39,423 nucleotides of DNA from an uncultured Oscillospiraceae bacterium. GTDB taxonomy: Bacteria; Bacillota; Clostridia; Oscillospirales; Oscillospiraceae. A program made the position numbers and the translations under genes. Location of the stretch: NCBI GenBank assembly GCA_947600025.1, contig CANQFY010000011.1, positions 1 through 39,423 on the forward strand. Direction: 5' to 3'. Every line of letters begins with the position of its first letter. The stretch's first letter is position 1. Shown here piece by piece: positions 5,242-24,714 of the stretch. The notes below the pieces were generated by a model. It was not told the DNA's origin, searched no databases, and saw nothing but the letters and a program-made list of their open reading frames with translations.

Positions 5242-5281
5242 GCCTATCTCGGTGGAGTATGCCTACTCCACATAATAGGCA
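5242..5281 (+). promoter_or_regulatory. Palindromic operator or alternating hairpin at the transcription start
   Basis: GTGGAGTA (5252-5259) and TACTCCAC (5264-5271) form a perfect 8-bp inverted repeat around TGCC. TGCCTA (5260-5265) can instead pair with TAGGCA (5276-5281), and GCCTAT (5242-5247) with ATAGGC (5275-5280). The pairings exclude each other in part. Because the -10 ends at 5239, this could be a repressor operator at the start site, or the first part of a switching RNA leader. Confidence 0.45.
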
Positions 5282-5295
5282 CATTCCGCCAAAAA

Positions 5296-5426
5296 AGGAG
5301 GAATATAAAAATACCGCTTGACTCGCGGTGCGGCAGTGTGGAGACCTGCCGTAATGCAGTGCCGCTTTATTCATCGGCGGCTGCGAGAACGTACATTGAG
5401 GATTCAGTACGTTCAGAGTCGGAAGT
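5296..5426 (+). promoter_or_regulatory. Structured leader before the ABC ATPase, with an orphan Shine-Dalgarno
   Basis: AGGAGG at 5296-5301 is the best ribosome binding site nearby, yet no ATG, GTG or TTG lies within 15 nt of it; the real ATG is at 5427, preceded only by GGAAGT. Between them GACTC (5320-5324) pairs with GAGTC (5416-5420) and encloses GCGGCA (5330-5335)/TGCCGC (5360-5365), the competing pair CGGCAG (5331-5336)/CTGCCG (5346-5351), and GAACGTAC (5387-5394)/GTACGTTC (5407-5414). This may be a regulatory RNA, or an insertion of about 116 bp that separated the gene from its original ribosome binding site. Confidence 0.4.
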
Positions 5427-6620
5427 ATGGCAACATTGACCCTGAAGAACATCAAGAAGATCTACCCGTTCAGCGGCGACGACACCAAGAAGAAGAAAAA
5501 GAAGAAGGGCGACGAGCAAGAGGAGAAGAAAGTCAATCTCCAGGTCACGGACAAGGGCGTGGTAGCCGTCCAGGAATTCAATCTGGAGATCCAGGACAAG
5601 GAATTTATCGTCCTGGTGGGCCCCTCCGGCTGCGGCAAGTCCACGACCCTGCGGATGATCGCGGGCCTGGAGGAGATCTCCGAGGGCGAGCTGTACATCG
5701 GCGATCGGCTCGTCAACGACGTGGCCCCCAAGGACCGGGACATCGCCATGGTGTTCCAGAACTACGCGCTGTATCCCCACATGACGGTGTACGACAACAT
5801 GGCCTTTGCCCTGAAGCTGCGCCACACCCCCAAGGCGGAAATCGACAAAAAGGTGAAGGAAGCGGCGGAAATTCTGGACATCACCCAGTACCTGGGCCGG
5901 AAGCCCAAGGCCCTGTCCGGCGGCCAGCGGCAGCGGGTGGCCATTGGCCGGGCCATCGTTCGGAACCCCTCCGTCATGCTGATGGACGAGCCCCTGAGTA
6001 ACCTGGACGCCAAGCTCCGGAACCAGATGCGGGCGGAGATCATCAAGCTGCGGGAACGGATCAATACGACCTTTATCTATGTGACCCACGACCAGACCGA
6101 GGCCATGACCCTGGGGGATCGGATCGTCATCATGAAGGACGGGTTCATCCAGCAGATCGGCACGCCTCAGGAGGTTTTCAACCATCCCTACAACCTGTTC
6201 GTGGCCGGCTTTATCGGCACGCCCCAGATGAACTTCTTCGACGCCCAGCTGGTGAAGGTGAACGGGAAGTACGCCGTGCGGCTGGACAATCTGACGGTGG
6301 AGCTGTCGGAGGACAAGCAGGCGGCGCTGGCGAAGAACAAGGTCGCGGAGCAGGCGGTGACCCTGGGCGTCCGTCCGGAGCATATTTCTCTGGCGGAGAC
6401 GGGCATCGAGGCGAAGGTGGACGTCCACGAGATGATGGGCTCCTCCGTGCACCTGCACGTCACGGCCATGGGGCAGGATGTGGTTCTGGTGGTGTCCACC
6501 ATGAACATGACCGGCGCGGAGATCGAGGCGCTGACCTCCGGTTCCACGGTCCACTTCCAGTTCCAGGGCAACGTCTGCCACGTCTTCAATAAGGAAAACG
6601 GGGTCAATTTGGAAGCTTAA
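5427..6620 (+). CDS. Sugar ABC transporter ATP-binding protein, MsmK/UgpC/MalK type
   Basis: 397-residue cytoplasmic ATPase that would energise carbohydrate ABC importers. Walker A is GPSGCGKST (65-73), Q-loop Q111, signature LSGGQRQR (163-170), Walker B VMLMDEP (183-189), D-loop SNLD, H-loop H221. The C-terminal part (about 240-397) is the TOBE/MalK-like regulatory domain. Permease and binding-protein genes are absent here, as is common for a shared ATPase serving several sugar importers. Odd points are a highly charged insert at about 20-36 (seven lysines in a row, then acidic residues) between the first strand and Walker A, and a weak ribosome binding site after a long structured leader. 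Confidence 0.92.
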   Translation: MATLTLKNIKKIYPFSGDDTKKKKKKKGDEQEEKKVNLQVTDKGVVAVQEFNLEIQDKEFIVLVGPSGCGKSTTLRMIAGLEEISEGELYIGDRLVNDVAPKDRDIAMVFQNYALYPHMTVYDNMAFALKLRHTPKAEIDKKVKEAAEILDITQYLGRKPKALSGGQRQRVAIGRAIVRNPSVMLMDEPLSNLDAKLRNQMRAEIIKLRERINTTFIYVTHDQTEAMTLGDRIVIMKDGFIQQIGTPQEVFNHPYNLFVAGFIGTPQMNFFDAQLVKVNGKYAVRLDNLTVELSEDKQAALAKNKVAEQAVTLGVRPEHISLAETGIEAKVDVHEMMGSSVHLHVTAMGQDVVLVVSTMNMTGAEIEALTSGSTVHFQFQGNVCHVFNKENGVNLEA

Positions 6621-20851: not shown

Positions 20852-20880
20852 TTGACAGCCGGAGGAAAGAATGGTACAAT
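20852..20880 (+). promoter_or_regulatory. Promoter of the tRNA pair
   Basis: TTGACA (20852-20857), 17-bp spacer, TACAAT (20875-20880), 33 bp before the first tRNA. Confidence 0.88.
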
Positions 20881-20912: not shown

Positions 20913-20989
20913 GGGCCTTTAGCTCAGTTGGTCAGAGCCTCCGGCTCATAACCGGATCGTCCCGGGTTCGAATCCCTGAAGGCCCACCA
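20913..20989 (+). tRNA. tRNA with CAU anticodon (Met elongator, or Ile2 after lysidine change)
   Basis: 77 nt including encoded CCA. Acceptor GGGCCTT/AAGGCCC, D-stem GCTC/GAGC, anticodon stem TCCGG/CCGGA with loop CTCATAA, T-stem CCGGG/CCCTG with loop TTCGAAT. The T-stem has one C-U mismatch at its second pair. The first acceptor pair is G-C and the anticodon stem lacks three GC pairs, so it is not the initiator. Met versus Ile2 cannot be decided by eye. Confidence 0.92.
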
Positions 20990-21027: not shown

Positions 21028-21080
<53 letters not shown>

Positions 21081-21103
<23 letters not shown>

Positions 21104-21163
21104 AGAATACGCCCCCCGGCACAGCCGGGGGGCGTATTCTTGGCAGGGGCACAAGGACTTGAA
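21081..21163. repeat. 83-bp near-perfect palindrome that includes the 3' end of tRNA-Trp
   Basis: Two exact 40-bp arms (21081-21120 and 21124-21163) are separated only by ACA. The first 23 bases of the left arm are the T-loop, T-stem and acceptor strand of tRNA-Trp. The inner 17 bp are a GC-rich hairpin that could end transcription. The right arm therefore holds an inverted copy of the tRNA 3' end. Confidence 0.95.
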
Positions 21164-21275
21164 AGATGAAATGCGACAGTCCGGTGGACTGTCGCCGGCC
21201 CGGGCTTGACCGGGCCGATCCATCATTTTCTCCCCACCGGGGAGAAAATGGAAACAAGTCCTTGTGCCCCTGCCA
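21083..21275 (+). mobile_element. tRNA-Trp 3'-end direct repeat flanking a hairpin-filled segment
   Basis: The last 21 bases of tRNA-Trp (21083-21103) occur again exactly at 21255-21275, 172 bp apart. Between them are four successive perfect hairpins and no gene. tRNA 3' ends duplicated in direct orientation are the usual trace of site-specific integration, so this may be an att-flanked remnant or a small non-autonomous element. That reading is inference; the repeats themselves are exact. Confidence 0.6.
21173..21250. repeat. Three back-to-back perfect hairpins
   Basis: 21173-21195 (10-bp arms, loop GGT), 21196-21217 (8-bp arms, loop GCTTGA) and 21224-21250 (12-bp arms, loop ACC) follow one another almost without gaps. 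This resembles palindromic intergenic repeat units (REP/MITE-like). Confidence 0.9.
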
Positions 21276-21277
21276 CC

Positions 21278-21321
21278 GTCGTCGCGGACTCTGTATCATT
21301 CGCGACGACTTTTCGTTTTTT
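21278..21321 (+). terminator. Terminator downstream of the tRNA-Trp repeat
   Basis: GTCGTCGCG (21278-21286) pairs exactly with CGCGACGAC (21301-21309), followed by TTTTCGTTTTTT. It starts 2 bp after the second tRNA-Trp 3' end. Confidence 0.85.
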
Positions 21322-21373
21322 CAGAGCCAATCGTTTGATTCAAACGGTCGGCTCTTTTTTTCTAGGAAAGGAA
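21309..21373 (+). repeat. Copy A of a 53-bp terminator/leader repeat
   Basis: 21309-21361 is identical to 24645-24697. It holds an interrupted hairpin (AGAGCC/GGCTCT outside, CGTTTG/CAAACG inside, 21323-21355) and a run of seven Ts, then the shared CTAGGAAAGGAA, which looks like a ribosome binding site. It may stop transcription from the tRNA side or regulate the short frame that follows. Confidence 0.9.
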
Positions 21374-24620: not shown

Positions 24621-24657
24621 AGCAGGCAGGAAGAATCCCGCCTGCTTTTCGTTTTTT
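24621..24657 (+). terminator. Terminator before copy B of the repeat
   Basis: AGCAGGC (24621-24627) pairs with GCCTGCT (24640-24646), followed by TTTTCGTTTTTT. As in copy A, a different hairpin is fused to the same T-rich tail. Confidence 0.75.
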
Positions 24658-24714
24658 CAGAGCCAATCGTTTGATTCAAACGGTCGGCTCTTTTTTTATT
24701 TTCTAGGAAAGGAA
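24645..24714 (+). repeat. Copy B of the 53-bp terminator/leader repeat
   Basis: 24645-24697 is identical to 21309-21361; after a 5-nt insertion the shared CTAGGAAAGGAA (24703-24714) follows. The sequences then diverge at once. The two copies bracket the surface-protein gene in direct orientation, 3,336 bp apart. Confidence 0.92.

Follow-up and report, generated by a model that had tools for sequence, protein, structure and literature searches.

The tRNA-Trp locus

The window, by which we mean the whole 39,423-nucleotide stretch of DNA analysed here, comes from an uncultured Oscillospiraceae bacterium (genome G000) and carries a pair of tRNA genes on its forward strand. These are tRNA-Met (CAT) at 20913–20989 and tRNA-Trp (CCA) at 21028–21103, both called by ARAGORN and Rfam, with a promoter-like site upstream of the pair on the same strand (20852–20880; TTGACA-17-TACAAT, 11/12). 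A DNA search of this genome, whose assembly is about 96% complete, returned no second locus for the pair at E ≤ 1e-20. Because this is the single locus found, the tRNA-Trp gene is presumably functional.

An initial annotation had pointed to an 83-bp palindrome at 21081–21163, and we find it as described: two arms of 40 nt each (21081–21120 and 21124–21163) are 100% complementary across a 3-nt spacer. Given the limits of tRNA-Trp, the left arm begins at the T-loop and holds the final 23 bases of the tRNA, which recur inverted in the right arm, again as first read. The palindrome is far above chance expectation, as the RNA fold of 21028–21320 has a z-score of −15.8 and none of 200 shuffled sequences was equally stable. 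In the minimum free energy RNA structure, the T-arm of the tRNA is paired with the right arm of the palindrome.

The palindrome, to which no strand is assigned, is only one part of a larger feature. It is made up of the tRNA 3′ end, a first hairpin on the forward strand (hp1, 21104–21140; stem 17 bp, loop 3 nt) and the last 23 nt of tRNA-Trp in inverted orientation on the reverse strand (I, 21141–21163), of which the T-arm (21152–21163) is conserved across the family described below. Overlooked in the first reading were additional perfect hairpins beyond the palindrome and a third copy of the tRNA-Trp 3′ end, this time in direct orientation. Without strand assignment, hairpin 2 lies at 21173–21195 (stem 10 bp, loop GGT, the strongest covariation), hairpin 3 at 21196–21217 (stem 8 bp) and hairpin 4 at 21224–21250 (stem 12 bp). 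The direct copy (D, 21255–21275, forward strand) reproduces tRNA-Trp nucleotides 56–76, from T-loop to CCA, at 21 of 21 positions, and we read it as the displaced 3′ end of the tRNA. Directly behind D, sequence and fold point to a probable host terminator on the forward strand (21278–21319), with the stem GTCGTCGCG/CGCGACGAC followed by TTTT; its loop is longer than the limit of our terminator scan, and it is outside the list returned by that scan. A similar sequence also lies 3′ of D at the tRNA-Trp of the relative G155. With D placed just before the terminator, 21104–21275 can be read as 172 bp inserted downstream of tRNA-Trp and ahead of its terminator, in the order hp1, I, hairpins 2, 3 and 4, D. 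The window's hp1 lacks a T-run and is absent from the terminator-scan list, so transcripts may well run across the palindrome.

Independent assemblies of relatives hold a unit of this kind at tRNA-Trp (G155, G156) and at tRNA-Pro (G026, G036, G155, G156), the inverted tRNA end of the G036 unit being near full length (22/24). The recurrence of such units in separate assemblies makes an assembly artefact unlikely. The similar inserts of close relatives, found at tRNA-Pro and in tandem, are 82–92% identical to the window in the longer matches, and a second copy in the window's own genome lies away from any tRNA, on contig G000:C93 (91% over 120 nt).

A family of units behind tRNA genes

To survey these units we used R1, a covariance model of the unit core built from 14 sequences. 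The window, which is one of the 14, matches it at 21155–21218 on the forward strand with 88.4 bits. Units were recovered in 120 of 136 genomes of the genus (E ≤ 1e-3), with up to 33 per genome. Across the order, 27 of 394 genomes have matches (E ≤ 1e-4; the weakest partly checked), the window's own genome and one congener among them, and under the stricter filters applied to a phylum sample (E ≤ 1e-5) the only positive genome of 398 is the window's own. A DNA pattern search of named genomes returned 38 stretches, every one titled as an Oscillospiraceae or Clostridia metagenome-assembled genome (MAG), and many of these MAGs come from the guts of sheep, goat, deer, yak and buffalo, or of rabbit to judge by the sample name Lapin. 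The phage and plasmid collections searched gave no match, and a pattern search found none in viral contigs. We found no published description of such units in the full-text literature, judged by titles and abstract openings, with preprints and subscription papers outside the scope. The family, widespread behind the tRNA genes of gut bacteria, is apparently undescribed.

In five genomes (G000, G018, G019, G066 and G148), at least 49 of 105 units start 24–60 nt past the Rfam-defined end of a tRNA on the same strand, a lower bound because it draws on 150 of 170 tRNA matches. By the tRNA matches listed, another 11 stand in tandem with tRNA-adjacent units, 11 lie within 2 kb and 8 are at a contig start, proximity to which was checked for forward-strand units only. 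The other 26 are outside all of these classes, and some of them reach off the contig end; at least the G148:C24 unit and one G019:C50 unit run past the ends of their contigs. The tRNA genes directly followed by units number at least 14 in G148, 12 in G018, 13 in G066, 7 in G019 and 3 in G000, the last having units behind tRNA-Trp, tRNA-Lys (two in tandem) and tRNA-Arg(CCG). We also noted that contigs G023:C203, G000:C15 and G000:C37 stop or begin at or near units or right behind a tRNA. With contigs ending at units, short-read assemblies probably undercount the arrays.

For comparison of the parts, we assembled 62 distinct tRNA-adjacent units, at 20 tRNA species, from the good-match loci fetched for genus and order. 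Identical copies were removed. Units were recognised by a hairpin rule no more than 110 nt from a tRNA ending in CCA, and tRNA adjacency in this set therefore holds by construction. The set contains a few doubtful members, such as L247 at tRNA-Gly, and two units with too short a sequence 3′ of the core.

The tRNA-derived parts of the unit

Both tRNA-like segments follow the sequence of the tRNA beside them. In the 62 units D matches the local tRNA at 18.0 of 21 positions on average and other tRNAs at 11.9, and the unit's own local tRNA is the best match in 50. Where there is enough sequence (60 units), D agrees at 17 or more of 21 positions in 45 and at fewer in 15. The first matching base is tRNA nucleotide 56 in 35 of these 45 units, nucleotide 55 in 8 and nucleotide 57 in 2, a count that leaves out the 2 short units and the 15 with poorer D. 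The junction is sharp: it lies within the T-loop, between GTT and CRANTC, and D extends from there to CCA. The usual start at 55–57 recurs at five loci outside the genus family (L122, L131, L132, L136 and L137), while at some loci of another family (G449, G391) D is, by eye, just about 14 nt of acceptor end.

The search motif for I fixes three T-loop bases, restricts three more and leaves the T-stem free, and it finds I in 59 of the 62 units. Agreement with the local tRNA in the T-loop (56–59 of 59 per position) is independent only in part, since the motif itself fixes or restricts these bases; at the freer positions it is 58, 58, 58 and 56 of 59. The inner T-stem agrees in 52–56 of 59 units, and further out the match fades to 43 and then 35. 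Overall, the T-stem of I fits the local tRNA at 4.10 of 5 positions versus 2.57 of 5 for non-local tRNAs (p ≤ 5e-5 by permutations that take no account of relatedness). For the acceptor half of I, agreement is low in most units (mean 5.5 of 12), and a near full-length I occurs in three of the 62: the window, the G036 tRNA-Pro unit and a tRNA-His unit of G002. Between tRNA and I, the two halves of hp1 are almost perfect inverted copies of each other in 59 of 62 units, and in 39 of 59 units hp1 carries a terminator-like run of at least four T.

Casposons and MITE-like elements at tRNA 3′ ends duplicate the tRNA 3′ end, and the units share that duplication. This could mean that each unit is a tiny non-autonomous transposon that inserted just past CCA through a Cas1-type (casposon) or DDE enzyme, with D as its target-site duplication. 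In favour, the local tRNA supplies D even in units whose I seems to have been brought from another tRNA, such as the G026 tRNA-Pro unit with its Trp-like I and the G155 tRNA-Pro unit; a duplication accounts for this more readily. A copy away from tRNA genes, that of G000:C93, also exists. Counter to this, we noticed no terminal inverted repeats by eye, and a transposon leaves unexplained both the tracking of the T-arm by I and the gene-bearing units, described below, that have the same D. We consider this origin improbable.

Covariation of the hairpins

Among 113 distinct units, 99.2% of the hairpin 2 cells are paired, and both helices combined contain 295 two-sided changes compared with 58.6 in shuffled alignments; slid controls gave no more than 66. 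Four of five covariation measures were reached by none of 500 shuffles; the fifth, the number of pairs with change on both sides, was 13 against a shuffled mean of 10.9 and was reached by 13 of 500. All of these counts lean towards the model structure, to which the alignment (A4) was fitted.

Strongly conserved hairpins in a same-strand position behind tRNAs could be expected of a structured regulatory RNA or a tRNA-processing element co-transcribed with the tRNA. Set against this, the stem of hairpin 2 contains almost no wobble: with the best-pairing stem taken per sequence, 6 of 1,130 pairs are G-T and 3 are A-C, and a fixed-column count agrees (5 G-U cells in helix 1). Wobble is present in the tRNA stems at these loci, with G-T at 27 of 343 acceptor pairs and 38 of 245 T-stem pairs. 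Furthermore, hp1 resembles a terminator in many relatives, and no Rfam family matches the unit at gathering score, which in the window only the tRNAs and malK-I reach. Around the unit, 17 Rfam matches with E-values up to 5 all fall below gathering (the best, mir-5984, with 48.4 of 95 bits), as expected for a long hairpin. On the wobble counts we set the structured-RNA-gene reading aside as very unlikely. Covariation almost without G-T, unlike that of the neighbouring tRNA stems, suggests instead that the hairpin 2 palindrome acts in DNA form. Folded as DNA, the segment of the window from I to D is predicted to form a closed 21-bp stem bearing three hairpins (−60.2 kcal/mol, z = −13.6).

Origin of the perfect arms in the window

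The initial annotation had proposed that the palindrome might record a fold-back duplication during replication. A comparison is offered by the G155 tRNA-Trp unit, which is identical to the window over the stretch running from the T-arm of I to the end of hairpin 3 and different in hp1. In that unit the outer I shows substitutions and a gap of 2 nt relative to the tRNA; in the window it equals the tRNA exactly. The G156 tRNA-Trp unit resembles G155 in hp1 and in its unmatched outer I. A fold-back or template-switch event is thus plausible for the exact outer half of the inverted copy in the window, where G155 differs. The feature as a whole is more than a simple fold-back duplication of one tRNA, since the inverted T-arm is a regular component of a module that occurs at 20 tRNA species, together with conserved hairpins, a direct copy of the tRNA end and tandem arrays.

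We suggest that the perfect 40-bp arms probably arose through a later, local template-switch correction of a near-palindromic segment formed by the tRNA end, hp1 and I. This is the simplest account of the arms, although the direction of change is inferred, and in the reverse order a full-length I may be the fresh state that decays later. To that extent the comparison favours fold-back, in a weak form and for the window copy alone. In a stronger form, no mobile element would be involved, and the units would result entirely from copying at tRNA terminators, by fold-back or through quasi-palindromes. This form accounts for the perfect arms of the window and fits an hp1 that is a near-perfect inverted repeat in nearly all units (59/62). 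However, it does not produce the conserved loop of hairpin 2, the directly oriented D or the genes that lie between copies of D. We regard this stronger form as hardly probable at all, and fold-back survives only as the source of the window's perfect arms.

Tandem arrays and gene-bearing cassettes

The units are arranged in tandem arrays with spacings of about 135–180 bp, and among the loci that we inspected, which do not amount to a census, six have genes between D copies. At L214, a tRNA-Tyr locus of a goat MAG, three D copies match at 21 of 21 positions, and open reading frames (ORFs) of 195, 71 and 199 amino acids separate the second copy from the third. L327 (tRNA-Val; D copies 21, 21, 21 and 16 of 21) holds a 136-amino-acid ORF and a tyrosine-integrase fragment inside the cassette, and L254 (tRNA-Met; 21, 21, 15 and 17 of 21) an LCM-type methyltransferase. 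At L251 (tRNA-Tyr; 21, 14, 19 and 18 of 21) we found a ParE-type toxin with a Phd/YefM-like antitoxin, the latter marginally under its Pfam cut-off; at L250 (tRNA-Tyr; 21, 18 and 16 of 21) a 184-amino-acid ORF; and at L261, where no tRNA was found (16, 13 and 15 of 16), four ORFs, one of them a sortase. A shuffled-key control at the same thresholds gave 0.05–0.54 D copies per gene-bearing locus. The automatic D-pair finder missed L254, and L327 was outside its input. Minus-strand frames at L250, L251 and L254 were left out of the ORF counts, and the D pairs at L073 and L100 were left out of the cassette count because of different T-arms or an own tRNA copy.

At two loci of G018 the whole tRNA gene is present twice, Pro (GGG) at L100 (G018:C1) and Tyr (GTA) at L250 (G018:C15). 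Each copy has its own unit behind it, with genes in between, including a helix-turn-helix regulator at L100.

On balance, the anatomy of the units, their tRNA adjacency and tandem arrays, the fit of D and I to the local tRNA, the sharp start of D and the gene-bearing members lead us to view 21104–21275 as probably one empty, gene-less cassette of tRNA-anchored, integron-like cassette arrays. In the passages cited, integrons pair an intI integrase with a cassette array (PMC8618304), CALINs are attC arrays without intI (PMC8618304, PMC4792948) and crossover takes place at a GTT/AAC triplet (PMC4792948). The units resemble the integrons described there in their tandem cassettes with or without ORFs, one of them a toxin–antitoxin cassette, in a palindromic, structured site at one cassette end, and in the CALIN-like state of having no integrase nearby (PMC8618304, PMC4792948). 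In integrons the attC site is recognised by its folded palindromic structure; in the units, the segment from I through the hairpins to D is predicted to fold and covaries strongly. Integron cassettes stand in tandem and generally have an ORF, and as most of the units that we read are gene-less, they are only partly typical in this respect.

The differences are also substantial. The anchor is a tRNA gene rather than attI, as the adjacency in the five genomes indicates (at least 49 of 105 units 24–60 nt behind a tRNA), D and I track the sequence of each tRNA, and a genome has several small arrays. The junction falls between T55 and C56 of GTTC, and D mostly begins at C56 (35/45), hence without GTT. 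No intI was found with the arrays in the PF00589 search of 8 genomes or among the 22 recombinases compared. With tandem cassettes present and with no intI, no attI and no GTT/AAC junction, the units are outside the integron definition.

Recombinases and tRNA islands

The PF00589 search gave 59 matches in 8 genomes, and we compared 22 tyrosine recombinase sequences from 25 loci, of which three yielded none through the motif filter, leaving out G065 and many weaker matches. Within this set, the unit-rich genomes G148, G018, G066 and G019 have only XerD and a XerC-like gene in common; in G148, XerD scores above its NCBIfam cut-off, and the XerC-like gene is best matched by TIGR02224, below the cut-off of that model. 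The same comparison recovered the XerC-like gene alone in G000, both genes in G021 and neither in G035, and the R1 genus search found no unit in G021 or G035. No dedicated recombinase tied to the arrays emerged from the 22.

On G000:C93 (L002, 1500–1620 and 1787–2079), the off-tRNA copy is a truncated unit that precedes a small tyrosine-recombinase gene by about 170 nt. This gene is cut by the contig end, and on its other side the unit follows a gene that by eye resembles aspartyl-tRNA synthetase. We considered this pair as a counterpart of intI and attI and dropped it: homologues of the recombinase occupy 29 loci in 25 of 136 genomes, and a unit adjoins at one of the 29, that of G000 itself.

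Alternatively, the units may be remnants of islands that integrate into tRNA genes (ICEs, prophages or satellites). Tyrosine integrases acting at the T-loop would have left D as nested attR fragments, internal deletions would have produced the short units, and I with the hairpins would be ancestral DNA bound by integrase or excisionase. Arguing for this case, a displaced direct tRNA 3′ fragment, a T-loop boundary or crossover and an intact tRNA are signatures of tRNA and tmRNA islands (Islander type) in the part of the survey cited (PMC4383910), and the window has both the tRNA and the displaced fragment, with D at 21 of 21. In addition, recombinase genes end near two arrays, and the L327 cassette contains its tyrosine-integrase fragment. 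At L069 (G026:C52, 1803–2600) the end of a large serine recombinase (Zn_ribbon_recom) comes shortly before a four-unit tandem array that ends in D copies of tRNA-Trp. At L197 (G449:C19) the end of a tyrosine integrase comes first; next, by eye, is a tRNA fragment that extends back as far as the anticodon region, and then the array. It looks as though an element entered the tRNA here and pushed the array away from it.

Counter to this, units of similar size, with tandem spacings of about 135–180 bp and a covarying core, are found at 20 tRNA species, and the unit-rich genomes compared share no integrase family beyond XerD and the XerC-like gene. Because the tRNA fragment at L197 is longer, extending to the anticodon region, that element appears by eye to use another site; both it and the L069 serine recombinase look like separate elements, and we rejected them as enzymes of the arrays. 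Units also have no match in the phage and plasmid collections searched or, by pattern, in viral contigs. They differ from islands in their length of about 135–180 bp without an integrase, in the internal inverted T-arm and in their tandem runs. Gene-less units are too short for the internal tyrosine integrase of an island, and the L327 cassette holds a fragment of one. As far as the cited part of that survey goes, candidates shorter than 2 kb or without an integrase were rejected, and Xer and integron integrases were left out (PMC4383910). An island origin is, to our mind, unlikely.

A proposed cassette cycle and its implications

Under the preferred reading of tRNA-anchored cassettes, each cassette would comprise the tRNA 3′ end from T-loop nucleotide 56 to CCA, then hp1 or genes with hp1, then I and hairpins 2–4. 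A site-specific recombinase supplied in trans would exchange strands at T-loop nucleotides 55/56 between the tRNA, or an existing D, and an incoming cassette. Pairing of I with D could create a double-stranded site within a folded single strand or a cruciform. With every insertion the tRNA would stay whole and its old 3′ end would be displaced downstream, becoming the next D. We hold the folded-strand step, within this reading, to be possible but rather doubtful.

A precedent for such a step is known. In phages of the CTX-phi type, a folded strand forms the double-stranded recombination site, and that site is dif. Integration of the folded single-stranded phage genome is XerCD-dependent in the account cited (PMC3089051). 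The units would be similar in their proposed folded-strand site, and among the tyrosine recombinases compared, the unit-rich genomes have only XerD and the XerC-like one in common. They differ in that the site is the T-loop of a tRNA rather than dif, and G021, where the R1 search found no unit, has both Xer genes.

Recombination and mobility of the units are themselves inferred from sequence patterns. The Trp-like I of G026, and an hp1 that differs between G000 and G155 around the same core, indicate that the movement of whole, unchanged cassettes is too simple a picture. Such mosaics of hp1 and core, together with this Trp-like I, units without a tRNA and the D of about 14 nt elsewhere, leave room for degraded islands or a target-duplicating transposon.

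It is conceivable, if somewhat short of probable, that the units represent a new class of cassette collector. It would use many tRNA docks through the near-universal T-loop, give each cassette a dock-repairing tRNA end and an inverted T-arm, maintain up to a dozen or so small parallel arrays per genome and have no dedicated integrase, relying on host XerC/XerD or an integrase in trans. If so, the capture of gene cassettes would extend beyond integrons with their intI/attI platform, with tRNA genes as hosts of arrays, and uncultured gut Oscillospiraceae would run several cassette arrays per genome. The arrays would offer a new hunting ground for accessory genes, overlooked by searches that require an integrase or more than 2 kb, as well as a direct test of recombinase use of the universal T-loop. 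They would also account for recurrent palindromes behind tRNA genes, which may break assemblies.

Two further observations concern the window itself. A terminator-like sequence (CAGAGCCAATCGTTTGAT…) is dispersed, occurring at 21309–21373 and 24645–24714, with copies of about 90% identity in G000:C1, G000:C12 and close relatives. The malK-I cis-regulatory RNA lies at 5248–5432, with a score of 145 bits.
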